64,000 nucleotides of DNA. Origin: Bifidobacterium sp. ESL0704. Lineage in GTDB: Bacteria > Actinomycetota > Actinomycetes > Actinomycetales > Bifidobacteriaceae. Positions within the stretch are counted from its first letter, which is position 1. The number at the start of each line of letters is the position of its first letter. A program made the translations under genes and the position numbers. Below are positions 41,012 through 58,100 of the stretch, piece after piece. The stretch is from positions 1,736,001 through 1,800,000 of the forward strand of contig NZ_CP113929.1 in the NCBI RefSeq assembly GCF_029392075.1, given 5' to 3'. The notes beneath the pieces were generated by a model. That model had not been told where the DNA came from, searched no databases, and saw nothing but the letters and a program-made list of their open reading frames with translations.

Positions 41012-41317
41012 TGGACATAATCGCAGAATATTGCCAAAACAATGACACTAAGCGCGGCTAATTGTCAACAAACGCAGAATATTCCTAAAACAATGACGTT
41101 TAAACCTGCTAATTGGACGTAATCGCAGAATATTCTGAAAACGGTGACGCCTAGCACCGCCAGCTGGACACAGTTCGGGAATAGTCCGAAAACAGTGACA
41201 CTCAACCCCACTAACTGGACACAATTCGGGAATAGTCCGAAAACAGTGACACTCAACCCCACTAACTGGACACAATTCGGGAATAGTCCGAAAACAGTGA
41301 CACCAAGCTTTATAAAC
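41012..41317. repeat. 51-bp tandem array, six units (array E)
   Basis: Units begin with TGGACA-like words at 41012, 41063, 41114, 41165, 41216 and 41267, exactly 51 bp apart. The last three are almost identical; the first three are diverged (GCAGAATATTCC replaces TTCGGGAATAGTCC). Each recent unit contains the palindrome TTCGGGAATAGTCCGAA and the words AAAACAGTGACAC. Because 51 is divisible by 3, open frames run through on both strands, but none has a ribosome-binding site. It fills the gap of about 600 bp between the CapA gene and a reductase gene. Confidence 0.9.
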
Positions 41318-42140: not shown

Positions 42141-43091
42141 TCACTCATAGACGGCAACCAAGCGGCCACGGACGTCACCGGCCTGCAGCTTCTTCAAACC
42201 CTCGGGAATCTCGTCGAAAGAGATCTTGGTGGTGACCGGGTCGAGGTCGCCGGACTCCATGAGCTTATAGACGCCGGCGATGTCGTCCTTCGTGCCGCCG
42301 TTGGAACCGAGCAGGTTGACCTGACTTATGATGAGCGCCTTGGTGTTGATGGTGCTTTCGAGACGGCCCATGCCCACGAGCACGACGGTACCGTGCGTCT
42401 TGCACGCCTCGACCGCCTGGGCTGTGGTGGTGCCGAAACCAGCAAAATCGATGACCTTGTCGAACTTGATGCCCTCGGCCGCGAACTCGTCGATGGACTT
42501 CTTCACGTCGATGGCGCCCAGATCCTTGGCCATCGGCCACGCGGATTCCTTGACCTCGGCGACGTAGAGATTCGCGCCAAGCAAGTACGCGACGCGAGCG
42601 CCAATCTGCCCCAGCCCGCCGACGCCGATGATGCAGACATCCTCGCCCTTCTTGACGGCCGCGCGCGTGGCGACGGCGTGGTACGAGGTCATGCCCGCGT
42701 CCGTCGCCGCCGCACCCTTGACGAAGTCGACCGAATCGGGAATCGGCACCAGCGCCTGTGCGCCGATCGCAATCTTCTCGCCATAGCCGCCATCGAAACC
42801 GCCACCAGGAGTGCCGGCCGAAGTAGTCGGGCAAATCGCGACGCGGTCGCCGACCTTGAATCCTTCGACACCTTCGCCGACCTCGCTGATGACGCCCGCG
42901 TCCTCATGGCCGAGCGTGAAAGGAACGGTGTGGCCCTTCATCCAGCCCGGATCGGTGAGAAACCCGACGTCCGTGTGGCACAACCCAACCGCCTTCGTGT
43001 CGACGATGACTTCGCCGGCCAAGGCACGCAGCTCCGGCACCTCCTCCAGCTTCAGCGGTTTGTTGGTCCCGTAAAATCTCCATGCTTTCAT
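42141..43091 (-). CDS. Zinc-dependent alcohol dehydrogenase lacking the structural-zinc loop
   Basis: Medium-chain dehydrogenase. The 316-residue product has the catalytic zinc region GLCHTDVGFL (Cys) and LGHEDAGVISEVGEGVEGFKVGDRV (His-Glu), the substrate region ATDAGMTSYHAVATRAAVKK and the Rossmann GVGGLGQIGARVAYLLGANL. In place of the four-Cys structural-zinc lobe it has AICPTTSAGTPGGGFDGGYGE. It is therefore shorter than AdhP. GAAGGAGGCAGCAAC precedes the ATG. The preferred alcohol or aldehyde is unknown. It marks the left border of the AT-rich island. Confidence 0.88.
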   Translation of the reverse strand: MKAWRFYGTNKPLKLEEVPELRALAGEVIVDTKAVGLCHTDVGFLTDPGWMKGHTVPFTLGHEDAGVISEVGEGVEGFKVGDRVAICPTTSAGTPGGGFDGGYGEKIAIGAQALVPIPDSVDFVKGAAATDAGMTSYHAVATRAAVKKGEDVCIIGVGGLGQIGARVAYLLGANLYVAEVKESAWPMAKDLGAIDVKKSIDEFAAEGIKFDKVIDFAGFGTTTAQAVEACKTHGTVVLVGMGRLESTINTKALIISQVNLLGSNGGTKDDIAGVYKLMESGDLDPVTTKISFDEIPEGLKKLQAGDVRGRLVAVYE

Positions 43092-43328
43092 GTTGCTGCC
43101 TCCTTCGGCTTACGTCGTTGAGCATTGGTTACGATGTACTATCGTAGTCCACCGGCAGGTTGTGAGTTTCTAATAACCGTCTACTCATTCCAACGCAATA
43201 AGCACTAAGAGCGGTCCTCAAGCCCACTAACAGCGCTTAAATCGAGGGCTCTATTTATAAAAATTAACCAAACAGATGCCGCACCACTCATCACTGCCTC
43301 AATAAAACTTAGATTCTAAAGTATCCCC

Positions 43329-44867
43329 CTATTGTTCATTCCCAGTCTTCTCTTTGTTGTTACTTTCAATCTCAGCAAACTTTGCCTTCATTGTTTCGTT
43401 TCCACGGGTAAGCCTACGGATAGTAACTCTCTGAGCTTTATCGTTGGCAAGGCGCAAATTGTTGTCTGAACCTTGAAGCGTTTCCTTTATTTTGTTGAGC
43501 TGCTTTATCGCTCTGTCGATCTCGTCGATGGCCGTCATGAACTTGCGGTGTGCCAAGTCAAAGTTGCGGCCGAACCCGCTCTTGAACTTATCGAGTTCCT
43601 CCTCGAAATGAGTGATGTCGATGTTCTGCGCCTTCATCTCGTTGAGCTCAGTCTTATATTGCATCGAGTTCTGTGCGGCGTTACGCAACAAAGTAATCAT
43701 CGGAATGAAGAACTGCGGCCGGATGGCATACATCTTCGGATATTGGTAGGAAACATCGACAATACCTGTGTTATACAGTTCGCTTTCCGGCTCGAGCATC
43801 GAGACCAACACCGCGTACTCGCAGCCCTTCTCCCGCCGATCTTTATCCAGTTCCTTGAAGAAGTCCTCGTTCTTGTGCTTCGTGGACGTGCTGTCGGTCT
43901 CGTTTTTCATCTCGAACATGATGGAAATGACCTCAACACCGCTCTCGTCGGTCTCTCTGAAAATGAAGTCGCCCTTGCTGCCGGTTCTGGCGTCGTTGTC
44001 CTTCTCAAAATACGCAGTCGGGAACGCAGTCGCACGAATCTTGTTGAACTCGTCCTGGCAGAAGTGCTCCAAGGACTCTCCCACCATCTTCGTGGATTGC
44101 TTGGTCTTGAAGTCCTTCAGACGCTCAATCTCATCGTCACGCACTTTAAGTTCCAGCGCATATTGCTCCTTCTGCGACTTTGCTTCCAACTTGCGTTTAA
44201 GGTCGGCCTGATCGATATTGCTCTTGAGCTCAGCGATCTGCTTATCCTTCTCTGAAGCAATCTTCTGGCGTTCGGTTTCCAGCGTGGCCTTTGCCAGTTT
44301 CTCAGCCAATTCCTTCTCCAATCGCGCCTTATCCAAATCGCTCTTAAGCTGGTCACGTTCTTTTTCGACAGCGCTGACCGCAGCTTCCTGATCGTGCTTT
44401 TGCGACGTCTTTATCGAATCAATCTCGTTCTTGAGTTTTACGATTTCGGCGTCCTTGGCAGCTGAATTCTTTTCCAGCTCGGTTGCGGACTGCGCCTTTG
44501 CCAGTTCCAATGCCTTCTGCTGATCCAATTTCGCCTGTTCAAGCTGAGACTTCAACTCATCCCGTTGCTTCTCCACTGGATGCAGTGCCTCATTGACCGC
44601 TAAATCTTTGGCTGATGCACTGGCATCAAGTTTTGCCTGAAGATCCTGAATCTGCGCATCTTTGGCCGCCTCCGACTTCTGCAATTCGCCTTCAGCCTTG
44701 GCACGTTCCAGCTCAAGAGCCTTTTTCTGCTCTCGTCCAGCCGCATCAAGCCGCTCGTGCAGTTGCTTGTCAAACTCTTTGTCGCGCACTTGCTTGACGA
44801 TATCGGCATACCCAGCCTCGTCAACCTTGAACGCCTTCCCGCAATTCGGGCAAACGATCTCTGCCAT
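43329..44867 (-). CDS. DUF2130 coiled-coil protein
   Basis: The 512-residue protein starts with a zinc-ribbon-like knuckle (VCPNCGKAF), followed by about 240 residues of Lys/Glu/Ala/Gln heptad-rich coiled coil (repeats such as [19 protein letters not shown]), then the DUF2130 domain ([56 protein letters not shown]). The FEMKNE and preceding acidic residues resemble a PD-(D/E)XK nuclease core, which fits the position at the edge of a defence island. Experimental function is not established. AGGAGCCAAAG precedes the ATG. Confidence 0.88.
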
Positions 44868-45137
44868 CTTTGGCTCCTAGTCTTATCTCTTAAATGCTTA
44901 TTTTAAAATATTTTACCTTAAATTCTATTTAGGCTCAGGCACGATACAATACGGTAGTGTCCGGAGTTTTGTGCAGATTATAGATTCAAAAGACATCTCC
45001 AACTTTTCGTCCGCACCCCCGACACTCAACATTTTTGATTTATTTACATTGTTCCATCAATAAATCAAGAAAAACTAGATAACCTATCTACCTATCCAAA
45101 CTTTATTATTAACAAAAGTTATGTATAACATTCTTTA

Positions 45138-46025
45138 TTAATAAGCCTCATCGTTTTTTCTAGACAAGAAGATACTAAAACTAAAACAAAAATAAATTAA
45201 ACCAATAAACCAGAAGAGCATAAATATTACACTCAATATAGGTAAAACACAATTATTGGGTAATAACTTAAGAAGATCCATACACAAAATATAACCAGGA
45301 ATGCTACACCCAAACAAACTGCCAAAAAGAGGGGCAAGAAAACTAATCTTCGGGGTATTCAACCTTCTCATTTCAATCATTTTGTTAAAAGCCGACTCCT
45401 CATGATTAATCGCAAAACCACCTTCTGTATGCAGAAGCGGTAAAAGGTATGTTTGAAAAACAAAATTAATTTGTATTTCTTTCCACAGTTTCTGTATTCC
45501 TAAGCACAAGAAAATTCCTATAATAAAAATAATTGAAATTTCAAACAGACCAAGCAACTGATTTTTCGAAAAACCAGATGCGGCAGACTTTCCTCCATAT
45601 ACAAAAAATAATATGGCGGATACTAAAAGAAAACCATAAATGAAAACAAAAATCGTATAGAAAATAAAAGCAAAGAATTTTATAGGCTTGAATAATTTTT
45701 CAATTTCTGGATTGTCTTCTTCTAATCTCCCTCTTGCATATTCTTTAAATTGCTTTTGAAACTGCTTGATTTCAAGCTTATTTTGGAAGTAGATCTTTCG
45801 CTTTTCCAGAATTTTTCCGTCCCTTGACACGTCCAAAACAGAGCTCAAAGAATCTATGTATTGAATCTTTCTTTTCAGACGTTTACTACTATTAAAAATA
45901 GACGAATTTATTCCAAATTCTTTTATAATAAAGCACGAAAGCAAAATTATAATTACAATTAAAGTAACGCCAAATTGGAACTGCTTTGGCAATGAATCTA
46001 TAACTTTCCCCAAGATTTCTTCCAA
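45138..46025 (-). CDS. AT-rich multi-spanning membrane protein
   Basis: I do not recognise this 295-residue protein. It has one N-terminal hydrophobic helix (FGVTLIVIIILLSCFII), a basic cytoplasmic-looking region of about 90 residues (KRLKRKIQYIDSL, KRKIYFQNKLEIKQF), two adjacent helices in the middle and two or three at the C-terminus. A TTG at 46025 with AGAGGG 6 nt upstream is the best start. It lies downstream of the Shedu-like gene on the same strand after 270 bp and shares its AT-rich composition. It may be an accessory of the operon, but the hairpin at 46047-46110 separates them. Confidence 0.65.
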   Translation of the reverse strand: MEEILGKVIDSLPKQFQFGVTLIVIIILLSCFIIKEFGINSSIFNSSKRLKRKIQYIDSLSSVLDVSRDGKILEKRKIYFQNKLEIKQFQKQFKEYARGRLEEDNPEIEKLFKPIKFFAFIFYTIFVFIYGFLLVSAILFFVYGGKSAASGFSKNQLLGLFEISIIFIIGIFLCLGIQKLWKEIQINFVFQTYLLPLLHTEGGFAINHEESAFNKMIEMRRLNTPKISFLAPLFGSLFGCSIPGYILCMDLLKLLPNNCVLPILSVIFMLFWFIGLIYFCFSFSIFLSRKNDEAY

Positions 46026-46046
46026 AATAATCCCTCTCAAGTGAAG

Positions 46047-46110
46047 TAATTATGGGTTATAGGCCAAACCCCGGTCATAACCAACTCGTTTTGCCTATAA
46101 CCCGTAATTA
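46047..46110. repeat. 18-bp inverted repeat between the membrane-protein gene and the Shedu-like gene
   Basis: TAATTATGGGTTATAGGC (46047-46064) and GCCTATAACCCGTAATTA (46093-46110) are complementary over 18 bp except for one position that is a G-U pair in RNA; the loop is 28 nt. The remainder of the 254-bp gap (46041-46294) holds no gene. It could terminate the four-gene operon transcript or belong to the family of inverted-arm elements. Confidence 0.65.
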
Positions 46111-46294
46111 TTGTATCCAATTAATATTTCAACCTTACAAGTAACATCCGCCTTAACCTATGGCTTTGGAAAAGCTACCTTTCGCTTCAACGGCTTGTGA
46201 ATTCCATAAATCTCGACGCATTCATGATTAACTACCATTTTGCCTACAAAACCCGCCTATTAATAAAAATATTCTCACTCAGCAATCAATACTT

Positions 46295-47521
46295 TTAATT
46301 ATCTAATTGTTGAGATTCATCCTTCATACCAGCCATCCATTTAGCCCGTTCAAACAATTCGTCATAGGTGATTATTTCCGGTGATACTATATTACGCCTA
46401 AACAATTCAAAAGCTCTAAATTTTAAGTCATTAAATATCCCAGAAGTTTCATAAAAATCACGTTGCATAGAGCCAATAATCAAATAGCTTCGTGGCTGAA
46501 AAAGATACACACTTTCAATAGGCGCACCCGTCTCATCTCTTCTAATTACTTCATTATTGTGCGAATCATTTATAGAAGCTAAAACCTCATTCTGTAACTG
46601 TGCTATTCCACCAGCCAGATCTTTCGATGGCGCCCAACACTCAGGCCGATATTCGTTACTTTGTAATAATGGCGCAGTATGCTGTTTTAGCTCAATGTAT
46701 ACCATCGAACGCCCTGCACCAACGCTCATATATAGCGCATCAGCACGTTTGCCGGCATGATTGATACTATTGCCCTGCACAGATTTCTCAAGTTTATTTT
46801 TGTCAAATGGAACTAATAAACGTGAGTCTAGACAAGATCCAAGAATCCACTGATTTTTTTCAAAGAAATGCTGCCAAACCGACTCGGGTTTATGCCATTT
46901 TCTTGTAGCTTCTTCAAAACAATCAGAATCATTCAGTAAATTATCAAAAACATTTACTGCTTGTTTCCTCGCCGCAATTGCTATCACATCGTCAGCGTCT
47001 TCATCATTCTGAATCTGCTGACGAATTTTAGATTTGTCATGATTATAGATTTCACTAATGGAATCTTTATCAGACAATAATTTATCCAATAAGGCAGAAT
47101 CGACCGGCCCAGAAAACTTACCGTTAGCCGAATAAGCAGGCAATCCCCGAATTAAATCAAAGAATGCATTCGCATCACTCTCATTGAGAGAGAGGACTAC
47201 TTCTTTTTCATTTGGATGTCTTTTATCAAAACGCACAATATTTAGTTGCTTGCAACGACCAGCATCGCCAACCATTAATAATTCTACTTGAGATCTTTTG
47301 TAACTGGATTGAACCGACATATTTGTCATCTCCGTCTCATTAGGGATAGTCGCATCATCGCAACAAAAAACTTTCTTAACATATCGTGCATCTTTTCCAT
47401 AATCCGAAGAGTTCTGTCTCCAATATGGTTTTGAAGGCAAAAAATAAGTTCTCCAAGGTAAACGCCTACATGCATATTCCCATTCATCCCAAGGAACTCT
47501 CGAGTGAAATTTTCCACTCAT
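46295..47521 (-). CDS. Shedu-like (DUF4263) PD-(D/E)XK nuclease
   Basis: The 408-residue protein carries a C-terminal DUF4263/Shedu domain (about residues 210-400): an ILGSCLDSRLLVPF strand, KRADALYM with the metal-binding Asp (about 261), MVYIELKQHTAPLL with Glu-Xaa-Lys (about 277-279), GGIAQLQNEV with the core Gln (about 308) and SYLIIGSMQRDF. Shedu is an established single-protein anti-phage nuclease in other bacteria. The N-terminal ~200 residues are not recognised and may sense a partner or DNA. The ATG overlaps the stop of the helicase gene (TGATG), implying coupled translation and joint function. AGGAG lies in the end of the helicase gene. Confidence 0.82.
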   Translation of the reverse strand: MSGKFHSRVPWDEWEYACRRLPWRTYFLPSKPYWRQNSSDYGKDARYVKKVFCCDDATIPNETEMTNMSVQSSYKRSQVELLMVGDAGRCKQLNIVRFDKRHPNEKEVVLSLNESDANAFFDLIRGLPAYSANGKFSGPVDSALLDKLLSDKDSISEIYNHDKSKIRQQIQNDEDADDVIAIAARKQAVNVFDNLLNDSDCFEEATRKWHKPESVWQHFFEKNQWILGSCLDSRLLVPFDKNKLEKSVQGNSINHAGKRADALYMSVGAGRSMVYIELKQHTAPLLQSNEYRPECWAPSKDLAGGIAQLQNEVLASINDSHNNEVIRRDETGAPIESVYLFQPRSYLIIGSMQRDFYETSGIFNDLKFRAFELFRRNIVSPEIITYDELFERAKWMAGMKDESQQLDN

Positions 47522-50061
47522 CACATCTCCTCAAATTCTTGGCTGGTAATTGACGTATTATATAAACCGACTCGCTTGTCGTTAGAATGCTTATCAATAC
47601 CTGCATAGGAAAGACTCGCGTCTTCATAACGTTTGAACTTATAAACAGCATCATTCATACGTTCGCCATTGAACAGATCCAGGCTAACCAGCAATCTGAA
47701 GTCATCTTTGGTCAAGCCCGTCACTTTCTTGAACAGTTCAGGCTCCAACTTGGTAATCACATCCGCAAGAGAATACTCACGAAAATCGGTGAGATACATG
47801 AAAACCGGAATACGTGTAGCAAATTTAATGAGTTTCTCTTGTATCTGTTTACGTTTGGTCTTATATTCCTTCTCCTCATCACTGATTTCTTGTTTCTGCG
47901 ATGGTGTAGCGTTATCGCCCAGTGCTTTTTTCTTGTCGCTTACCTCTTCAGATTTAGCAATGATAGTTTTCACATCCTCATTCAGACTACGGAAGCCCTC
48001 AATGTTCATCAAAGCATCCATTGCCTTCTGATTGTTCATTAGTTTTCTGAGGGTATTATTGTCAACGTTCACTAGCAATGCGCTCTCCCAGCGCTTTGCT
48101 AGCAATGTCGCTGAAGTACCAGATGTAGCAATATCAAGAACATCAGCAGCATTGAGTTGTCTCATGCTGCTACCGTCATAGGCAAGCACAGGCAGGAAAT
48201 TAATAAAATCAGCCACACTTTGCTCTGGATTGGCATCTTTATCAGGGTTTAGCTTGCAGCTATAATCCGCTATTTGTCGCAATGCTCGATTCGGAGCAAA
48301 ATCAAATACGTAACACTCTTCCTTCATTACTGCATGCCTATTGGGATGCCGACCATCAGGATTCGCAACCACCCAGGGCGATTGAACTCTGAATGCTGCT
48401 TGGAAATACGTTTCCGGACTCGACAGATTCCGCAGCATGAAAATACCACTCCATGGTTTGACTGTGACTCCCGTGGTTAATTTTCCACATGTTAAAGTGA
48501 TGGTCTTAGTCTCCAGCGGGTTACCGAATGAGTTCAGAACCGGTTCAAGCGCCTTGGCTCCCATTCCTGCATGTTGGCCAGCAGCGACATTGACACGATA
48601 ATCATGATAAAAAGTATTCTGATGTTGCTTCAACACATTGCGCATAGCATAGCAAGATGCAACCGAGGGAAGGAACCAAACCGTATGTGACAGAATGTTC
48701 TTAAGACGCGAATCAGAATACGGCATCGGGGGCCTCCTAAAGCCGGCATTCATGTCATCAATTGCCGCCTCAAGATACCCACCTCTAATAAGATCCAACC
48801 ATTTCTGCACATCAGATTCATGCAGAAATTGGGCATCGTCACCTACGCCTTTCGCTTTAAAGAATTCATTAAGATCGAACTCATCTGCGTCACCTTGTGA
48901 AACGACTTCTTTGATGGAATCAGGAACTTTATATGTCATAAGAACCATCCGAGGCAAACCCTCATATGGATTTGGCCCATCAGCGGAATTCCATTCTTGC
49001 TTTGCTCTTTGCTCATCGGAATAAGTCCAATTGAAAATCTGTTCTTCGATAAACTCGCCATTAGCTATCGCGCGGAAAGGCGTACCGGAAAGGTACAGAT
49101 AAGCGCCAGAAGTTATGGGAAGAAAATCCTCATTCCCTAGCTCAGTAACTTGTTTTTCAAACAGTTTTGTAACAGCTGTATCTGAAAAATCGCTTTCCAA
49201 CTCGCTATTAGGTTGAGACCGATCATCTGTATTGGCTTCTTCAAAAAGACCTTTGGCATTCTGACGCCAAGCACCATAGTGATATTCGTCGAAAATCACT
49301 AAATCCCAAGGAATGGTATGAATCCATTCATTTTTAGCTTTAATGCCCCCAGAAGCACTTTTACCAAGTACATCTTGGAATGAATAAAAGCAGACGACTG
49401 GCTTATCTCTATCAGCGGTTTCATAAGTCAATTCAGTGTCGTTAGCGATGAACTGCCAGCCTTCGAAATCCTTATGAGAGAATAAATCTGATTTCCATGA
49501 ATTTTCAACGGCTGGCTTGAAAGTGAGTACAAGAATCTTCTTGTAGCCCTCAGCTTTTGCCAGTTCATAACTAGCAAAAGTCTTCCCAAACCTCATTTTG
49601 GCGTTCCACAGGAAGCGTGGAGTTCCATCAGGATTCTCCACTTTATAGTTGTGGAAGTATTCTCTTGTTCTCCGTACAGCTTCCTGCTGCTCCGGACGCA
49701 TCTTAAAATCTTCGACACGATCAGACAAAGACTCTTGGCGATTTCTTACAGCAACAATAGCCTTACGAACCGTCTCAACATCGCATCGGAACCATTCTTT
49801 AAAAGGATTAGGGACGCCATTGTTCTTTAATACTCGATGAACTGCTTTATCCCTAAATGACGTACCATCACTTCGTATCGCATCTTCCTCCAACACTATA
49901 GTACGGGCGAAATTCCCTGTACCTGTCTGTTCACCAACACGATCATTGACATCTCTCTTAGTATCTCCAACTTTAATCAGACCCTTATGGTCTTCATAAG
50001 GAACTGTATACCCATAAATCTTCGGAGACACCTGAGGCTTAGCAGGGAAAAAATTAGACAT
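47521..50061 (-). CDS. GIY-YIG/T5orf172 plus DEAD/DEAH helicase protein (restriction-type)
   Basis: An 846-residue protein with two parts. Residues about 13-80 look like a GIY-YIG/T5orf172 nuclease or DNA-binding module (YGYTVPYEDHKGLIKVGDTK then RDVNDRV and FRDKAVHRVL). From about 120 comes a superfamily 2 helicase: Walker A variant FLWNAKMRFGKTFASYE, Walker B LVIFDEYHYGAW, motif III YLYLSGTPFRA, and motif VI YFQAAFRVQSPW. A charged C-terminal region of about 250 residues follows, including a Lys/Glu coil. This type of helicase is found with adenine methyltransferases, where it would translocate on DNA. It begins 16 nt after the methyltransferase stop and ends in a TGATG overlap with the Shedu-like gene. 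Confidence 0.85.
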   Translation of the reverse strand: MSNFFPAKPQVSPKIYGYTVPYEDHKGLIKVGDTKRDVNDRVGEQTGTGNFARTIVLEEDAIRSDGTSFRDKAVHRVLKNNGVPNPFKEWFRCDVETVRKAIVAVRNRQESLSDRVEDFKMRPEQQEAVRRTREYFHNYKVENPDGTPRFLWNAKMRFGKTFASYELAKAEGYKKILVLTFKPAVENSWKSDLFSHKDFEGWQFIANDTELTYETADRDKPVVCFYSFQDVLGKSASGGIKAKNEWIHTIPWDLVIFDEYHYGAWRQNAKGLFEEANTDDRSQPNSELESDFSDTAVTKLFEKQVTELGNEDFLPITSGAYLYLSGTPFRAIANGEFIEEQIFNWTYSDEQRAKQEWNSADGPNPYEGLPRMVLMTYKVPDSIKEVVSQGDADEFDLNEFFKAKGVGDDAQFLHESDVQKWLDLIRGGYLEAAIDDMNAGFRRPPMPYSDSRLKNILSHTVWFLPSVASCYAMRNVLKQHQNTFYHDYRVNVAAGQHAGMGAKALEPVLNSFGNPLETKTITLTCGKLTTGVTVKPWSGIFMLRNLSSPETYFQAAFRVQSPWVVANPDGRHPNRHAVMKEECYVFDFAPNRALRQIADYSCKLNPDKDANPEQSVADFINFLPVLAYDGSSMRQLNAADVLDIATSGTSATLLAKRWESALLVNVDNNTLRKLMNNQKAMDALMNIEGFRSLNEDVKTIIAKSEEVSDKKKALGDNATPSQKQEISDEEKEYKTKRKQIQEKLIKFATRIPVFMYLTDFREYSLADVITKLEPELFKKVTGLTKDDFRLLVSLDLFNGERMNDAVYKFKRYEDASLSYAGIDKHSNDKRVGLYNTSITSQEFEEM

Positions 50062-50077
50062 TCAACTCACTCACCAA

Positions 50078-51601
50078 TCAATCCATTGGCTTAATCAAAG
50101 ACTCAATAAACCGTTCCTCTGAAGAAGAAATGCCATACTTCTTATATAATTCCTCATCCGACCAACGAACCGAGAAATCCTGCATTGGCACAAATCCATA
50201 AACTTTAGAGGTTGCATGCTGCGAAGGTTTTCTAAGTAAAACAAGAAAGCGGAAAAGCCGAGTTTTCATATACGATATAACATTTTCACACTCTTCTTGC
50301 GATGCATAAGGCCCTACAAGCAGATATGTTTCAGTCGACACTGTATTAGGAGCGCCAAAAAATGGCTTTCCAATAATAGGATGAGGAAAAGCATCACTTC
50401 CGCTTCCCGCCTCAGGAACAAACACTTTATTTGACTTAATCCATGAGCGATTACTTCGAATCAAGGAACTCTCAATCCAGGAAGTGCCCTTATTCTCGTA
50501 CAGCTTTATGCCATTGTCAATCCTGCTCTTTTTACCATGAAACGTGGTAGGTAGCCCGAAAGGTTTTCGCGCACTAACTTGTGATTCAAAAGTCGGCTCT
50601 TTTAAAAGTCTAACTTTCTTCAAAATTTGTACAGCTTCATTCCAGCGAATAAAGACGTCCGAACCTTCCTCTAATAAAGGTCGCTCTACTTCCCTGCCAG
50701 CCCCTGAACTTGTAATCGTTTGTACTTTACAATCACCTTTATTGTCACGATCCCAGAGGAAATAGCATACTCCTCCCTTAATCTGCACACCCGGAAAACA
50801 GTCCATAGCATTTGGATAATCATGGATCTCTCTTATCCTGCGATCGTGGAGCATATCATCTCTAAATTGATCGAGTCCCTTACCTCCAGCGAACCAGCGA
50901 GATGGAATAATCATCGTTAAGTATCGAGGGTTAAGTTTTTCTGCTTGTTCAACAAATCTCTGATAAATAGGAGATGCACTAACTCTATATCCTCCGTCAC
51001 TCATCTGATAAGGAGGGTTACCGACGATTACATCAAACTGCATATTGAAAAAACTTTCTGGAGTGTATGTGTGCAAAAATTCGTAGGTATAGCTTTCAAG
51101 ATCACTGGAGCGATCATATTGTTCTTTACTAGCACCGCAATATACGCACTGCTTCCCGTCCCAAACATGCGGATGCAGTGACGGCTCATCATATTTGATA
51201 TTGCCTGCATCGTTATCGAATTTGCCACAAATCGAATATTTACCTGATGCATTTTTAGAACAATAAAGACTTCTACGTGAAATCAGAGAAGTCAACTCGG
51301 TAGTCGCAATACCGTAAACCTGATAGAGCAAGATATGGTTGATACGCTCGTACTGATCTGGTATCTTCTGCTTCAATCCCTCATTTAGACGTTTGGTAAT
51401 TTCTCTAAGGAAGACACCAGTTTTAGTGAAAGGATCCAGAAACTTAGCATCTGGATTACTCCATAAGTCTGTCGGTAACTGGTCTAGAACTCGGTTGGCA
51501 AGACTAGGAGGGGTAAATACCTCGTCATTAGACAGATTAGCCAAACAAGATAAAACGTCAGGATTGTAGTTCTTTACAGCTATCTGATTATTCACACTCA
51601 T
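50078..51601 (-). CDS. Eco57I-type N6-adenine DNA methyltransferase
   Basis: The 507-residue product has the AdoMet motif I (AKFLDPFTKTGVFLREI, about residues 55-70) and the catalytic motif IV VGNPPYQMSDGGY (about residues 193-205), the N6-adenine NPPY signature of the Eco57I family. Between them is an insert with four Cys (CSKNASGKYSIC, CVYCGAS) that could bind zinc. The remaining ~280 residues should hold the target-recognition part. No nuclease motif is seen within it, unlike Type IIG enzymes. Its start overlaps the end of the upstream small methyltransferase gene by 14 nt, and the helicase gene follows after 16 nt. Confidence 0.88.
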   Translation of the reverse strand: MSVNNQIAVKNYNPDVLSCLANLSNDEVFTPPSLANRVLDQLPTDLWSNPDAKFLDPFTKTGVFLREITKRLNEGLKQKIPDQYERINHILLYQVYGIATTELTSLISRRSLYCSKNASGKYSICGKFDNDAGNIKYDEPSLHPHVWDGKQCVYCGASKEQYDRSSDLESYTYEFLHTYTPESFFNMQFDVIVGNPPYQMSDGGYRVSASPIYQRFVEQAEKLNPRYLTMIIPSRWFAGGKGLDQFRDDMLHDRRIREIHDYPNAMDCFPGVQIKGGVCYFLWDRDNKGDCKVQTITSSGAGREVERPLLEEGSDVFIRWNEAVQILKKVRLLKEPTFESQVSARKPFGLPTTFHGKKSRIDNGIKLYENKGTSWIESSLIRSNRSWIKSNKVFVPEAGSGSDAFPHPIIGKPFFGAPNTVSTETYLLVGPYASQEECENVISYMKTRLFRFLVLLRKPSQHATSKVYGFVPMQDFSVRWSDEELYKKYGISSSEERFIESLIKPMD

Positions 51602-52265
51602 CTAGCCCCACCTTTGCAAAATCGACCAACGGATAATCTTTGACTGGCGTTGGTACTATCTTACCCATATCATCGGCATCCATATGCTCAACCATGTCGA
51701 AGGTCGGTTCAGCCGTCGCAGTATTAACCAAAGAATCAAAGGCGAAATCGCACCGCTTGACTTTCCCGCCAGATACCAAAGACCATTCCGGGAAAACGAT
51801 AGGTTTTCCAGCATTATCCTTCATACTGAGAGCATCGCCACATACGACGTTTCTTTCCAAGACGTAACGTATTGACTCGCGAACTGAATCGCGAGACTTC
51901 GTTTTAAACTTTGTCGTATATGCTTTATTAGCTGCAGCAAATAGCCTATCGCGACAATCCGCAATATTGTCGGGTAACAAATCAATCCCATACAACGACG
52001 CTATTGCCAAAAACAGATGACGCTCATATTCAAGTTGAATTTTCCCATACTTTTTCGCAACTACGATTAGTTTTCTCCTCAGGACTTCAATAAGAAAATT
52101 ACCGTCCCCACAAGCCGGCTCAAGAAACCGGCTCTCAATTCGTTCGGTCTCCCCTTTGACCAAGTCAAGCATGGCATCCACTTCACGCTTGGCAGTAAAC
52201 ACTTCTCCGTGTTCCTCGACCCGTCGCTTCGACTTGATCTGAGATTCCGTTCTGAGTATTTCCAC
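51588..52265 (-). CDS. Small methyltransferase-like protein without visible catalytic motif
   Basis: The 225-residue product begins with a conserved EEHGEVFTAKREVDAML region and has AdoMet motif I (SRFLEPACGDGNFLIEVL) and motif II (YGIDLLPDNIADCRDRL), as in N6-adenine methyltransferases. The N-P-P-Y/F catalytic motif IV is missing: the NVVCGDALSM strand is followed by FPEWSLVSGGKVKRCDFAF instead. It may be an AdoMet-binding partner of the full enzyme encoded 14 nt later, or a regulatory subunit. The GTG at 52265 is the first codon after a TATACT box; no Shine-Dalgarno sequence. It heads the four-gene operon. Confidence 0.8.
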   Translation of the reverse strand: MEILRTESQIKSKRRVEEHGEVFTAKREVDAMLDLVKGETERIESRFLEPACGDGNFLIEVLRRKLIVVAKKYGKIQLEYERHLFLAIASLYGIDLLPDNIADCRDRLFAAANKAYTTKFKTKSRDSVRESIRYVLERNVVCGDALSMKDNAGKPIVFPEWSLVSGGKVKRCDFAFDSLVNTATAEPTFDMVEHMDADDMGKIVPTPVKDYPLVDFAKVGLDECE

Positions 52266-52271
52266 ATTTTA

Positions 52272-52277
52272 AGTATA
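52272..52277 (-). promoter_or_regulatory. -10-like box of the methyltransferase-helicase-Shedu operon
   Basis: TATACT on the minus strand, followed by six bases (TAAAAT) and the GTG start at 52265, so the operon message is probably leaderless. The 71-bp gap also serves the divergent beta-family gene, whose own start has AAAGGAG. Confidence 0.45.
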
Positions 52278-52336
52278 CAGGTACTCTATTAACGATAATA
52301 TAAAATTGACATTCAACAATTTCAAAGGAGAAGTCT

Positions 52337-53431
52337 GTGAACAACCAAAATATTTACAGCCCTCGTATTCTTCTGAAGCGAGGAGAGATGGGCGCCGTTA
52401 AACTATTGGATATAACTAATAATCCCTACAAAAATAGTTTCATTCCTATATTCGAACTTACAACAGTTGAAGGCTGGAAAACGGAAGATACCGTTGAAGC
52501 CGAACAAGAAAATACAATCCGAATCAAAACACAAATAAAACGAATTACTTCTTCTTGGGATAAGCGTCTGCCGGCTTTCTTAGACGGTTCGAATGCGGGA
52601 ATAACTGAAGATGAAGAGTCTATTCCATTGACCCAAGCATTTATGGAGACAAAGGAATTAGTAGACTTTAATTTCATTCCTATTTCTCACACTCTCGACC
52701 TTTCAGACGAAGAATCAATACAGATTAGAAGAATGCTGGATTCACATCGTTGCTATAAAACGGCAATCCGACTGACTCTTAACTTATGGGAAACTTTCGG
52801 TTTAGATGCTGTAGACGATTGGCTCAAAGGTCTAAATCTCAGCCAATCAAACTGCTATTTAATTATTGATTTACAAAACCCCACTGATTTATCCGTATAT
52901 GAATCAGCAAAATCACTAATTCTTTCTTTCAACGAGAGATTCTCGGAATGTCCAATAATTTTACTTTCCACTTCTGTACCAGATTCGGGACAGTTTACTA
53001 AAGTACTCACACCATATCCGAGATCTGAATGGATTAACTGGAAATCAATTCAAAAAGACTGTCAAAATATAATCTTCGGAGATTACGGCACTGTGGGCTT
53101 ATACCAAGAACTTGCCATTGACCCTAAATTTATACAAATTTCAGGAAAATTTAAATACACCTTAGAAGACAATTGGTACATAGCAAAAGGAGGTCTTTTT
53201 AAGAGCAATAAAGCTGATAAAAGTTTAGGGGGCGTATCAGTTAAACCCGTACTTGAAGCTATTTCAAAATTACCAGGTTTTAATCCAACCCATTGCTCGG
53301 CAGATACTTGGATTAAAGAACGAGCAGAAGGAACGGTTGACACAAAACGATATGGGAATTCTGCTACTTGGATTACTCAAGCGATGCTACATCACATAGA
53401 GACAGTGCTTGAACAATTAGCAGAATTATAA
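52337..53431 (+). CDS. Beta-family protein (T4 beta/sce7725-like)
   Basis: The 364-residue product starts NNQNIYSPRILLKRGEMGAV and has the spaced strands (IPIFELTTVEGW, LPAFLDGSN, FNFIPISHTLDL, CYLIIDLQNP) of the beta-protein family (PF14350), first noted in phage T4 and later found beside sce7726 genes. It ends in a QLAEL tail. Biochemical function is not known to me. The GTG at 52337 has AAAGGAGAAG upstream. Its 3' end overlaps the sce7726-like gene on the other strand by about 40 nt, an arrangement that couples the two by antisense. AT-rich. Confidence 0.78.
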   Translation: MNNQNIYSPRILLKRGEMGAVKLLDITNNPYKNSFIPIFELTTVEGWKTEDTVEAEQENTIRIKTQIKRITSSWDKRLPAFLDGSNAGITEDEESIPLTQAFMETKELVDFNFIPISHTLDLSDEESIQIRRMLDSHRCYKTAIRLTLNLWETFGLDAVDDWLKGLNLSQSNCYLIIDLQNPTDLSVYESAKSLILSFNERFSECPIILLSTSVPDSGQFTKVLTPYPRSEWINWKSIQKDCQNIIFGDYGTVGLYQELAIDPKFIQISGKFKYTLEDNWYIAKGGLFKSNKADKSLGGVSVKPVLEAISKLPGFNPTHCSADTWIKERAEGTVDTKRYGNSATWITQAMLHHIETVLEQLAEL

Positions 53432-54069
53432 TATTCTCTTTCGTCATGCCAGTTTTGTCTATCCTTCAACTTACAGCGCACAATTAGCCTAATCTGGGAT
53501 AGAGTGAAGTTTTGCACTACTCTGTCCCAGATATCACTACGTTGTTTATCATATAAGCCTTTACCTAAACCATAATCTCTGAGTACATCCAAAGCCTCAT
53601 CTTTCCATAAAAACTGAACAACCGATGAAGGATCAATTCTAGTTTTATTGGTATGAGCCGAACGATACTTACGTAAATAAACATTCCCTTTTTGCGATGT
53701 TTTAGCTACATAGATACCCCAGAAATCAGGAAGTATTTGTAAGGACTGTTCAAGATGATTTGGAGCCACAACTAAATTGCAATAATCCATCACTTTTGAA
53801 TAATATTTAATTTGTTTCGGCAACCGATCAAGATTGTCGCTTTCGCTTTTCAGCTCATACCCCGTAAGATGCCCGTTAATGACAGCAATATCTGCACGCA
53901 CTTCTCCGCATATGTCAAGTTCATTGAGAATTTTGGCATCCGCTGTCATTAAGCTACTTTGGTTCTCAATCATCTTCCAAGTAGCCATACGGATATCAAA
54001 GTCATGCATTTTAGGTTGAGGCATAGAACAATTTAAACACGGCTTCTGTGCACTTTTTGTAAAATCCAT
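53392..54069 (-). CDS. sce7726 family protein
   Basis: The ~225-residue product has the family core GEVRADIAVINGHLTGYELKSE followed by DNLDRLPKQIKYYSKVMDYC and NLVVAPNHLEQSLQILPDF. The Asp and ExK arrangement (ADIAV...GYELKSE) is that of a PD-(D/E)XK nuclease. Family members sit next to beta/sce7725 genes, as here. The start is uncertain: an ATG at 54069 (MDFTKSAQK) is used; another start at MHDFDIR is possible. The convergent neighbour overlaps its end. I infer a small defence or toxin-like module. Confidence 0.78.
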   Translation of the reverse strand: MDFTKSAQKPCLNCSMPQPKMHDFDIRMATWKMIENQSSLMTADAKILNELDICGEVRADIAVINGHLTGYELKSESDNLDRLPKQIKYYSKVMDYCNLVVAPNHLEQSLQILPDFWGIYVAKTSQKGNVYLRKYRSAHTNKTRIDPSSVVQFLWKDEALDVLRDYGLGKGLYDKQRSDIWDRVVQNFTLSQIRLIVRCKLKDRQNWHDEREYYNSANCSSTVSM

Positions 54070-54209
54070 ACAATCGAAAATAATATTACAGCCGAACAAA
54101 TGGAATCAAAAAAAATTCCACCTCCAAAAATTTTTAAAAGTCGACCATTCGAATCGTGGCGCGACTTCTAAAAGTCTAAACCAATAAGCGGTTCTAAATA
54201 TTCATTCAA

Positions 54210-55166
54210 TTATTCAAATCTATACCTCATATCCACAGGAATTTGGGACAAAAGGTCGCTTTCTGCCAGTTCAAAAATTGCTGAATTGACGAAACCTTGC
54301 GATGATGACTTGCCCCAGGCCTGCTGACACATTTGGACCAGAGTACTGCCATCGATAAGTTGGATATCGGCTTCATTCGCATATTTGACAGCCTGAGCTG
54401 TATAGGTGCTTGTCGTGATAAAAATCAGCCCCTGCGCATGTTGTATCTCGTTGGCACCGGCAAGCTTGCGCAAAAACGGCAGACCGACATGGCGATAGGG
54501 CTCGAAGCACTTGCACTCCGCAATATACGTGCGACCATCTTTGATCATTTTCAAATCAAATCCACCATCGTTGTTGGACTGGGTAACCGCAACCTGGTAA
54601 CCAAAGTTTCGATAGAGGTCGGCACAGAACGGCTCGAAATCGGCGGGTTGCGACGAGAAACTGTCGACAATCGCCTGAACCGACGTGGCACGTTGCCGCA
54701 CCTTGACCCGCTGAACCGCACGCTGGCGCTTGAAGGATTCCTCGCGCGAATAACTGATCGAATTCCCGTGATGCCGCATGTCGAGTACAAGACCGTACAA
54801 GGTCAATGGGTTCTTGGATTTGAATGAGAACCCTGCAACTTCGAGCGTACTTTTCGGCTTGCAGATTTTATTGTTTGAATGCCGCCGATCGGCGGTGCCA
54901 TCCTTCTTTGAGAACTGCCAGTATGGGTAATTCAAAACAAAGCTGCCAATCCCATCGTCATCTCGTGAATGACTGATTCTGACGCCTTTCGGCACCTCGA
55001 CGTCGCAGGTTTTGCGCACTTTCCCCTTCAACCATATCTGCCGAAGTTCACGAAGCACCAGGACAACCATAATGATGCCAGCAGCAGTTATCACCAACGG
55101 AATTATGTGAGCCTCCAAAACTGGAATGAGCTTGATGAGTTTGTCGCTAACGTCGAAATCAGTCAT
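54210..55166 (-). CDS. Membrane-anchored Mrr-like restriction endonuclease
   Basis: The 318-residue protein has one or two N-terminal hydrophobic helices (about residues 11-45, HIIPLVITAAGIIMVVLVL) and a C-terminal Mrr_cat nuclease domain with the catalytic core NNDGGFDLKMIKDGRTYIAE and CKCF (Asp and Glu-Xaa-Lys). Mrr-type enzymes cut modified or structured foreign DNA. The membrane anchor is unusual and would place the nuclease at the cytoplasmic face where phage DNA enters. It starts 27 nt after the SNF2-helicase stop on the same strand, so the two are probably co-transcribed. Confidence 0.85.
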   Translation of the reverse strand: MTDFDVSDKLIKLIPVLEAHIIPLVITAAGIIMVVLVLRELRQIWLKGKVRKTCDVEVPKGVRISHSRDDDGIGSFVLNYPYWQFSKKDGTADRRHSNNKICKPKSTLEVAGFSFKSKNPLTLYGLVLDMRHHGNSISYSREESFKRQRAVQRVKVRQRATSVQAIVDSFSSQPADFEPFCADLYRNFGYQVAVTQSNNDGGFDLKMIKDGRTYIAECKCFEPYRHVGLPFLRKLAGANEIQHAQGLIFITTSTYTAQAVKYANEADIQLIDGSTLVQMCQQAWGKSSSQGFVNSAIFELAESDLLSQIPVDMRYRFE

Positions 55167-55193
55167 AAATAGAATATTACCTTCAGATAATCC

Positions 55194-58100
55194 CTATTCC
55201 AGCAATTCCAACAGGTCGTCCTTCGTTAGGTTCGAGATGCCGGCGGCACTGCCGGTGCCGGCGTTGTCTACGAAACGGTGGGCAAGGTCGCTCTTGGACT
55301 GCTGCATCTTCAAGATGCGCTCCTCGATGGTGTCCTTGGCGACGATCTGGTAGACGTTGACATCCTGGGTCTGGCCGATGCGGTGGGCACGGTCGGTGGC
55401 CTGCTCCTGCGCGGCGGCGTTCCACCACGGGTCGGCGTGCACCACCACGCACGCGCCGGTGAGGTTCAGGCCCGTGTTGCCGGCCTTCAGAGAAATCAGG
55501 AACACCGGGGTATCGTCGGCGTTGAACTGGTCGACCAGCTCGAGGCGCTTGCGCTTGGGGGTGGCACCAGTGATGACGTTGTAGGCCACGTGATTCTTGC
55601 GCAAGCGCTCGGCAATGAGGTCGAGGAAGCTGGTGAACTGCGAGAAAATCAGCATCTTACGGCCGGCGTCCTGGCAGCTGGAGACGAGCTCTTCGATGGC
55701 GTCGAGCTTCGCCGAGGTGACCTTGCGCGGCTTGGTTGACGTTCCGGCTTTCGAGGCATCCGAAGCGTTACGACCTGTTGAACCTTCATCCCCCACAATC
55801 GCATTCGCCGAAGCATCGGCGGTCTCGCTGAGCTCGTCGATATACTCGTCAATCGGCTCGTCGTCGGCGCGCTCGGTCTCGCGGCTGGGCATGCCCCAGA
55901 CGTGTGCGTCCTTCTTGACGACGTTGCTGCCGACATTGCTGAACAAGAGTCGCGGGTCGCAGCAAGCCTGGCGCAGACGGGTGAGCTGGGCCAGAATCTG
56001 AATCTTGCCGGTCTTGTATTCGATGTCGCGCTGCTTGTTCAAGGTAGCGCGCAGCTGCTGTTCGAGCGCGGCGTACAGCCTGCGCTGCTCCCCCTCAAGC
56101 TGCACGGTGATGACGTTCTCGATCTTGTCGGGCAAATCCTTCAGGACCTGCGACTTCAGGCGCCGCAGGATGAACGGACCGACGAACGCCTGCAGCTTGG
56201 CCTGCGCGTTTTCGTCGCCGGAGAGAATCGGCATTTCGAAACGTTCGCGGAAGTGCTTGTAGGCCCCGAGCATGCCCGGCATGAGGAAGTCGAAGATGCT
56301 CCACAACTCGGAAAGCCGGTTTTCGATCGGCGTACCGGTCAGAGCGAAACGGTGACGCGCATTGACAGAGCGCACGGCGCGGGCGGACTTAGTGGCGTGG
56401 TTCTTGATATACTGCGCCTCGTCAAGCGTCATACAATAACATTCGAGGCCGTCGTAATCGTCGATATCGCGGCGCAACAGGTCGTACGAAGTAATCAGCA
56501 CATCCGGCGCAACCCATTGGGAAGCGGCAATGTCATCATCGTCAACCAACGCTTGCGGGCTGTCGGCACTCTGCCAGCCATCATCACCCGAAGCGGATAC
56601 AGCGGATACAACAGGACCACCGACGCGAGCCGCGGAAACCGAGGAGCTATCGGCCGACCGTTCCCCTACAATCTGCTGGTTAGAAGTCAGCGACTCCGTG
56701 CCGTCGGATTCAGCGAGCATCTGATTGTGGTTCAGAAGGTCAACATCATCCATCGCCATATCGAAACTTGCCTGCTGCGCTCCAGAAACATTCTGATGAA
56801 CAGTTAGAAGCTCGGTATTACCGCTATTTGAATCGGAATAATCGGCTTTATCATGCCATCCCTCAGTCGCCGACCCAAAACTTCCAGCTCCAGACGCTTT
56901 CCGACCCTCATACCAAGCTTTGGTGTTTTTGAGCGTCGCGCGACGGGCGGCTTTGGAACCGGCCAGCACCTGCACGTTAAGTGACGGCGCGAATTTGGCG
57001 CATTCGGCGGCCCAGTTGTAGACCAGCGACGCCGGGCAGACGATGAGGTTCGGCCCGACCCGCCGCTGCTCGTCGCGCCGCGCAAGCAGATACGAAAGCA
57101 TCTGTACGGTTTTGCCCAAACCCATCTCGTCGGCCAGAATACCGCCAAAACCCTTGTCGGCCACGGCATTGAGCCAGCGGAACCCCTCAACCTGATAGGG
57201 CCGCAGGACGTGCGCCAGCGACTTCGGCACCTTGTAGGTCTTCGGGTCGATGACGCGCAAATCGTTCAAGTAGCTGCGGAATTCGTCGCTCTTATCCTCG
57301 TCATCGGCCTCGTTATCAAGGTAATAGGCCTCGTAGGCAGGTACGGAGACGGTTCCGGAATCAAGGTCGACCGGCTTCAGCCCCAAGTCGCCGCTGACCT
57401 CGTCCAACTTGCTAGTGTCGACGTCGGCCATGTTGACGAACGCACCGTTGCGCAGGCGGTGGAACTTGCGGCGCTTGCGATAGCTGTTGAGCAATGCCGG
57501 CACTTCGGACGGGTCGATTTCGTCGGCGATCGGCGAGATCTCGACCAAGCCGGATTTGATGGACAAACCGATTTTGAAGACCGGATGCGGCGAAGAGGTG
57601 AGCCCGTCGAAACTCGGCGTGGAGAACACCTCGCCCAACCCGCGCAAAACCGGCAAGCCTTCGTTCAAAAGCTTGTAGATGGCTTTGTCGTTGTCCTCGT
57701 CGATACGTGCGATCGGGCCGTCGGGCATCGGGAAATACTGACGCACGGCCTCCACTGCCAGGCGTTCGGTTTCGCGGTCCCGCGCGACCGGTTCATTTGG
57801 ACCGATACCGGAGAAAACATGGAAACGATCGTCGCCGTATCTGGCCTGCACGTCGCAGGTGATGCCCTTGCGGTCGCGGTCGAGATACGTTTCGATGTGG
57901 CAGGGCACGTGGCGCATGCGGATCAGTTCGGGCGGCAGTTTGACGGCGATGCCGTGATGCGTGGTGCCGCGCGAGGTTGCCGGCGTCAGGTCATCGCTCA
58001 CTGCGGATTCCGTAGCGGAAGCTTGCCCTGTTCCGTTTTGCGTTAGGCCGTCTGAAGCCATTTGGCCGGTATCGTTTTGCGATGAATGATCCGAGTCGGT

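Follow-up and report, generated by a model that had tools for sequence, protein, structure and literature searches.

A putative three-gene restriction-modification core with a co-translated Shedu nuclease gene in Bifidobacterium

Four coupled genes of Bifidobacterium sp. ESL0704, here designated A to D, are best explained as a self-sufficient, ATP-dependent restriction-modification core (A-B-C) followed by a co-translated but functionally separate auxiliary nuclease of the Shedu family (D), a reading to which we assign a probability of about two in three. It builds on gene content, conservation, motifs, the absence of D from other core loci and a mosaic boundary between C and D; the biochemical activities, the partnership of A and B and the auxiliary role of D are predictions. 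A and B would together form an adenine methylase, with B as the catalytic and target-recognising subunit and A as an AdoMet-binding, non-catalytic partner. C would serve as the restriction subunit, its SF2 motor travelling on double-stranded DNA and its GIY-YIG domain cutting unmodified DNA. D, at the operon tail, would be translated with the core through stop-start coupling and would work apart from it as a second-layer nuclease, with DNA ends as its probable signal. We have moderate confidence in this functional separation of D as an auxiliary, and low confidence in mutual help between the two modules.

Layout and surroundings of the locus

Positions refer to the window, the whole stretch of 64,000 nucleotides that was analysed. 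Defence families were assigned with profiles from PADLOC 2023, Pfam and NCBIfam. An earlier reading of the sequence alone had described four AT-rich genes coupled by a 14-nt overlap, a 16-nt gap and a TGATG overlap, and the ORFs bore this out at the coordinates given here:

52297-52325, minus strand: candidate operon promoter (TTGAAA-17-TATATT), 31 nt before A, a consensus match alone
51588-52265, minus strand: gene A, 225 aa, an AdoMet-binding adenine-methylase domain of the gamma type that lacks both catalytic motif IV and a target-recognition domain
50078-51601, minus strand: gene B, 507 aa, adenine methylase of the Eco57I type that contains NPPY and varies in its C-terminal half, the probable site of target recognition
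47521-50061, minus strand: gene C, 846 aa, GIY-YIG (T5orf172) nuclease domain at the N-terminus, joined to an SF2 motor (DEAD/ResIII)
46295-47524, minus strand: gene D, 409 aa from GTG, nuclease of the Shedu family (SduA, DUF4263), occupying the accessory position behind C
45138-46040, minus strand: 300-aa protein without family match, next gene past D, kept in a second species (genome G002)

A and B overlap by 14 nt, B and C are separated by 16 nt, and C and D share ..gTGATGag.. as a stop-start junction. An alternative start of D (ATG at 47521) would yield 408 aa, and the relative P0121 begins there. Promoter-like sites in the region numbered 18, not above shuffled sequences (mean 19.6). The AT-richness was confirmed in 1-kb windows, with a GC content of 0.38-0.45 in the operon versus ~0.58 in its surroundings; across 45-55 kb the windows ranged from 30 to 47% GC, as against ~58% around them, which suggests that this stretch was probably acquired. 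The best named relatives are from Bifidobacterium. No RNA family matched in the region 43000-55500.

The 300-aa protein past D had no match in PADLOC, Pfam or NCBIfam at E <= 0.1. A copy that is 87% identical follows D in G002, and it is listed as a candidate neighbour rather than as a demonstrated component of the system. A relative with 36% identity lies across the neighbouring alcohol dehydrogenase (ADH) gene, on its other side, in G002 and in a further genome (G116).

The operon is situated in a variable AT-rich island (43100-55200) between an SNF2 helicase gene and the ADH gene. The island also contains a DUF2130 protein (43329-44867, minus strand; PF09903, 4.3e-89), which is missing from the corresponding interval of G002, and a Beta_protein (52337-53431, plus strand; PF14350, 6.6e-35), which converges on and overlaps a sce7726/cll protein (53392-54099, minus strand; NF033832, 2.9e-46). 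The latter pair is kept in G002, and we take it to supply two of the three components of the defence set gop-beta-cll. A 51-bp tandem repeat of ~5.7 copies lies between chromosomal genes at 41012-41303.

Orthologues of ADH were traced in a further seven Bifidobacterium genomes, four of which have the SNF2 helicase upstream as in the window. The SNF2-ADH interval held Gabija (GajA 2.5e-210, GajB 6.7e-173) together with a large protein weakly matching STAND in G034, a SIR2 protein in G029, an MmeI-type enzyme accompanied by a C5 methylase and a GHKL protein that weakly matches TIR in G118, and an EcoRI-type methylase with a GmrSD_N-HNH protein in G119. No SNF2 gene was found within the 20 kb fetched from the more distant G120, G004 and G024, of which the first two carry type I restriction-like genes (by eye) and the third mainly ordinary-looking genes. 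Judged by these gene contents, the operon of the window is one occupant of a predicted defence hotspot site.

The A-B-C core

A diverse alignment of C was scanned against GTDB genomes, which returned at least 596 pattern stretches, 583 of them with relatives. The best 80 loci were kept, and their genes were counted by tblastn. In 62 loci the sequence upstream of C extends for 2.6 kb or more; there, A and B were both present in 57 and B in 59; A was missing from five loci, three of which also lacked B. The order A-B-C, in the same direction as C, recurs across phyla, so that the grouping of the genes exceeds chance; by their titles, the best 80 loci belong to Bacteroidota, Pseudomonadota, Bacillota, Chloroflexota, Cyanobacteriota, Patescibacteria, an archaeal bin and others, with one (L014) from another Bifidobacterium. 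C and A each have at least 8000 relatives among proteins. The recurrence of A-B-C across loci, including a plasmid and a phage, identifies it by gene order as a real unit, of which A is a part. On an Enterococcus plasmid, C and B form one protein of 1445 aa next to a separate A, such B-C fusions having been seen in distant relatives only.

The phage in question is Caudoviricetes phage NatCom_35866 (PV036449; L223) from human faeces, in which A-B-C lies two genes from an annotated excisionase. In the Corynebacterium crudilactis plasmid pCRULAC2 (L130, 1225-7790), a Tn3-family transposase, an IS3-like element and genes for aminoglycoside phosphotransferase are situated between B and C. No DNA relatives covering 80% of the whole operon were detected on plasmids or phages.

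Although the three-gene core is very common and spans many phyla, no description of it, or of the four-gene combination, was found among the papers listed by searches of the open-licence literature. Nor did a named system of the four-gene composition come up in PADLOC 2023, in agreement with the sequence-only reading, which knew of none.

The proteins A and B carry complementary motifs. A gave weak methylase matches (PADLOC MTase_II, 9.1e-10; Pfam MmeI_Mtase, 1.3e-4, under the cut-off) and a weak resemblance to PglX (PADLOC, 3e-5; NCBIfam, 2e-4, far under the cut-off). The canonical AdoMet motif LEPACG.G.F. was present in 55/55 A proteins and the catalytic NPP[YFW] in none of the 55. B matched Eco57I (PF07669, 1.8e-33) and contained NPPY in 64/64 proteins; its motif I is altered to DPxxK[ST]GVFL, with Lys in place of the first Gly, as seen in all of the 12 commonest variants (covering 56/64 proteins). 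The predicted model of A (pLDDT 84) is similar to CamA, MmeI and BrxX in their AdoMet-binding parts, although Foldseek alone yielded no match for it at E <= 0.001. A search by sequence found no solved structure at a useful level for A, B or C.

The complementarity of these motifs suggests a two-subunit methylase in which B would be catalytic and A an AdoMet-binding helper, and in the sampled proteins it predicts an obligate two-protein adenine methylase. The notion of two halves of one split enzyme was rejected because each protein has a motif I region of its own and B has both motif regions. The earlier term 'split adenine methyltransferases' holds only loosely. The least conserved part of B is its C-terminal half, where residues ~300-500 were 0.32-0.48 identical between the two Bifidobacterium species, as against 0.62-0.94 before them; this fits the expectation for target recognition, the probable role of this half.

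A genuine split of B was observed in two other Bifidobacterium genomes, G068 (L126, 8306-12630) and G064 (L128, 7774-11900). In this variant the recognition half is a separate protein (321 aa with NPPY in L126), whereas the helicase protein (1119 aa) carries the N-terminal half of B at its end, with a protein of 329-334 aa upstream that weakly matches A.

C matched T5orf172 (1.7e-7) and ResIII (2.2e-5) in Pfam, its Res-type motor domain reaching 24.9 bits against the PF04851 cut-off of 22.5. Residues Y16, K30, G32, R41, H75 and E89 were invariant in 30/30 C proteins, and we take them to be the catalytic positions of the GIY-YIG fold. The first 100 residues were modelled as strand-strand-helix-strand-helix with fair confidence, while the model of the whole protein was poor (pLDDT 62). 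The motor aligned with SNF2-type ATPases, with the type ISP enzyme LlaGI tied with them. Given its conserved GIY-YIG domain, the core would own a candidate nuclease, although the domain could bind DNA instead of cutting it. Cores without a gene after C are assumed to be complete.

Gene D and the position behind the core

D matched the PADLOC profile SduA over almost its full length (1.5e-105) and contains the DUF4263/SduA_C domain (PF14082, 2.7e-28; 99.6 bits against a cut-off of 27). The PD-(D/E)XK residues D262, E278, K280 and Q309 were invariant in 17/17 aligned D proteins. D aligned with the solved SduA structure 8ti8 at 7e-13, its E278 matching a Glu of 8ti8 which the 8ti9 construct replaces by Ala. 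It is, by these matches, a well-formed member of SduA and a predicted nuclease. The families named in the sequence-only reading were thereby recovered for all four proteins, that is PF07669 in B, T5orf172 and ResIII in C, PF14082/SduA in D and, weakly, a methylase in A.

The close family of D is small, with 126 relatives recovered from 2227 candidates at the sensitivity used, compared with at least 8000 for C. At 14 loci of D relatives (four plasmids, three genomes and seven viral contigs, some with short flanks), A, B and C were absent from the fetched flanks (14/14), which argues that D has a life independent of the core. Protein D had no match in phage records, and it matched 62 plasmid records, of which 20 were listed and six examined. 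Rhizobium plasmid NZ_CP013575 carries both a core and a Shedu relative (30% identity), situated ~11 kb apart on opposite strands and thus not in one operon. A second Rhizobium record was common to both plasmid match listings. In V. cholerae, SduA and the neighbouring GrwAB are independent of each other, according to an excerpt of PMC12137116.

Next to the core, D is rare. A tblastn search of the fetched DNA found it at 0/80 core loci, 73 of which reach at least 600 nt past C. PF14082 was present in 4 of 50 core-bearing genomes taken from these 80 (five places) and adjoined the core in 0/50; three places lay past the end of the core's contig, one on a contig differing in content from the complete core contig, and the fifth ~190 kb from the core, if the contig is shared. 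The 14 control genomes likewise gave none. Among 396 actinobacterial genomes, D was present in five and C in 17, with this genome as the only overlap; the overlap expected by chance from the four other D genomes (one of them, G208, a weak partial match) and the 16 other C genomes is ~0.16, so that this count, weak on its own, shows no association of D with C rather than avoidance. Shedu as a constant part of the core was rejected on these three counts (0/80 loci, 0/50 genomes with PF14082 adjoining the core, one overlap in 396 genomes), and we conclude with high confidence that it is not a regular part.

D was detected in three of 112 Bifidobacterium genomes: this genome, G002 and, as a broken copy, G116. 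In G116 the frameshifted D lies next to the same ADH gene in a genome without B or C, on a contig that begins 716 nt upstream. Strong matches to B (E < 1e-100) were obtained in 8 of the 112 genomes (G000, G002, G023, G035, G125, G110, G123 and G087), and D is beside the core in two of these eight. Among the genomes examined, D thus adjoins the core in two, both Bifidobacterium.

In G002 the whole A-B-C-D set occupies the same chromosomal site, with protein identities of 72% (A), 63% (B), 76% (C) and 91% (D). In 150-nt windows, the DNA identity to G002 was 0.47-0.84 over A-B-C and 0.87-0.92 over D; the last three windows of C gave 0.75, 0.84 and 0.75, placing a step from ~0.78 to ~0.91 at the C/D boundary, which 30-nt windows were too noisy to locate more finely. 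D had a dS of 0.42 (dN/dS 0.09), and the neighbouring chromosomal ADH gene a dS of 0.50 (dN/dS 0.11). No dS could be obtained for A, B and C, which was taken as saturation, and the genes before A (Beta_protein, sce7726 and Mrr; dS ~1.0-1.2) were also more diverged. A-B-C and D therefore differ in recent history in the only two four-gene genomes found, and the step in identity and dS suggests an exchange, either of the core beside a D already resident there or of D at the tail of the core. Either way, the C/D junction was preserved and purifying selection on D continued.

These observations bear on the proposal of the sequence-only reading, in which the four genes form one system, A and B marking self, C scanning and D cutting unmarked DNA. 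In its favour, the coupled genes are kept at the same site in two Bifidobacterium genomes, but D was not found in the fetched DNA of any of the 80 other core loci and has relatives that occur without a core, C has a GIY-YIG domain of its own, and the history at the C/D boundary is mosaic. We consider the four-part system very improbable, and its assignment of the methylation-guided cut to Shedu was not upheld. As one possible refutation, the same reading had named homologues that usually lack the Shedu gene, its adjacency here being due to chance: the gene is indeed usually absent, but the coupled order kept in two species speaks against chance. This retained stop-start coupling could mean that joint production is important, and it was counted against the reading of D as a separate auxiliary.

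The positions around the core were also surveyed in other loci. Of the 61 loci in which A and B are both present, 22 have more than 250 nt separating B from C, and 6 have such a distance separating A from B. A same-strand ORF of at least 120 aa starting -40 to +50 nt from the stop of C was present at 16/80 loci; the 'coupled' downstream ORF of L057 is probably a shadow ORF. For Pfam assignment, 30 proteins were picked by hand, 20 from behind C (18 first and two second genes) and ten inserts, a small and similarity-chosen sample. Eight of the 20 were of defence type (two GmrSD, one of them in the distant variant locus L179, two SIR2_2, one of them with STALD, and one each of NACHT, AbiH, OLD/TOPRIM and UvrD, the last two being GajA and GajB of Gabija by PADLOC), five belonged to other families (GNAT, 3-keto-disaccharide hydrolase, SpoIIGA, DUF4357 and DUF5677) and seven had no Pfam match. 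The inserts comprised a YhcG nuclease, PDDEXK_3, Bro-N, RhuM, HARE-HTH, DUF2971, two HEPN proteins, a transposase and one unmatched protein. In this hand-picked sample the sites behind C and those separating B from C thus seem often, but not always, to be filled by defence-type genes; the genes of other families and those without a match suggest that the slot after C is in part ordinary neighbourhood.

Among the other Bifidobacterium genomes with a strong B match, G035 carries Gabija directly 3' of C with a 0-nt gap (PADLOC GajA 3.9e-157, GajB 8.4e-81). C is followed in G110 by an unmatched gene and AbiH, in G023 by a 591-aa protein whose Lamassu-like match is weak, and in G125 by a 236-aa ORF without assignment; nothing coupled follows it in G087, and in G123 the contig ends there.

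Shedu is reported to sense DNA ends and cut there, and Gabija is likewise end-sensing, according to part of PMC12904381. Core and D could accordingly be separate enzymes acting in sequence, with cuts by the core at unmodified sites producing ends from which an end-sensing Shedu degrades the DNA. The stop-start coupling, leading to co-production of core and D, and the end-sensing Gabija in the same place in G035 agree with this idea, which we nevertheless regard as unlikely, as the end-sensing examples number two, the occurrence of GmrSD, SIR2, NACHT and AbiH at this position does not agree with it, and the D relatives found apart from the core need no core. Still somewhat less likely is the generalisation that the core tail is a docking place for nucleases acting on DNA ends, such that restriction and end-sensing form one relay with Shedu and Gabija as interchangeable second runners. 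If it were true, motor-driven cuts at unmethylated sites would be the trigger for a partner that destroys the DNA. Such a relay is directly testable with the two Bifidobacterium versions, one with Shedu and one with Gabija.

D might, on the other hand, be restrained by the core, or sense it, and fire when a phage inhibitor disables it, in the manner of PrrC in a type I operon. Restriction operons can indeed contain embedded guardian genes, prrC among them, as described in the excerpt of PMC12707154, and toxin-like genes (HEPN, SIR2 and AbiH) occur at A-B-C cores. In the alignment, however, the length and N-terminal region of D are about the same as in relatives elsewhere, with no added interface, and other Shedu members are reported, in the part of PMC12904381 concerned with them, to act on DNA and not on host machinery; we judge this arrangement quite improbable. 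The reading of D as a separate auxiliary draws further support from BREX loci, whose swappable auxiliary and backup effectors include Shedu, GmrSD, OLD/Gabija and HEPN according to an excerpt of PMC12839542.

Comparison with known systems

D resembles Shedu (SduA) in its near full-length match, PD-(D/E)XK residues and alignment to 8ti8. Shedu is a single-gene system, whereas D closes an operon of four coupled genes in two species.

With the type ISP enzymes LlaGI and LlaBIII the core would have in common a nuclease, an SF2 motor for double-stranded DNA, a gamma adenine methylase and target recognition, and the C motor resembles LlaGI in fold, as it does SNF2-type ATPases. Type ISP enzymes are single polypeptides with an Mrr-like nuclease; here, three separate genes encode a GIY-YIG domain and an extra AdoMet-binding subunit, A. 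C shares its Res-type motor (PF04851) with type III restriction-modification systems, whose Mod subunit is of the beta class (N6_N4_Mtase); B is of the Eco57I type and A weakly matches MmeI/N6_Mtase, with no N6_N4_Mtase match at E <= 0.1. Type IIG systems combine endonuclease and methylase in one polypeptide, whereas B and C are separate ORFs. The PADLOC profile REase_MTase_IIG (PDLC03626, 1359 positions), a fused helicase-methylase, is matched in its two halves by C (2.1e-35) and B (4e-45), which here are two genes accompanied by A and D.

CglI (R.CglI and H.CglI) is also a motor-dependent restriction system outside the standard types with separate subunits, according to part of PMC5737866; its nuclease and motor are two proteins, those of C a single one. 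BREX likewise joins a methylase-motor core to exchangeable PD-(D/E)XK (Shedu), GmrSD, OLD/Gabija and HEPN genes, as far as the excerpt of PMC12839542 describes it. PglZ and BrxC/PglY matches were absent among the nine island genes scanned, and the core described here is different and smaller. If its operon regularly carries exchangeable nucleases, the BREX pattern of a core plus auxiliary effectors would extend to ordinary-looking restriction systems. The present case is not a new principle but fits this known core-plus-auxiliary pattern at an apparently undescribed core.
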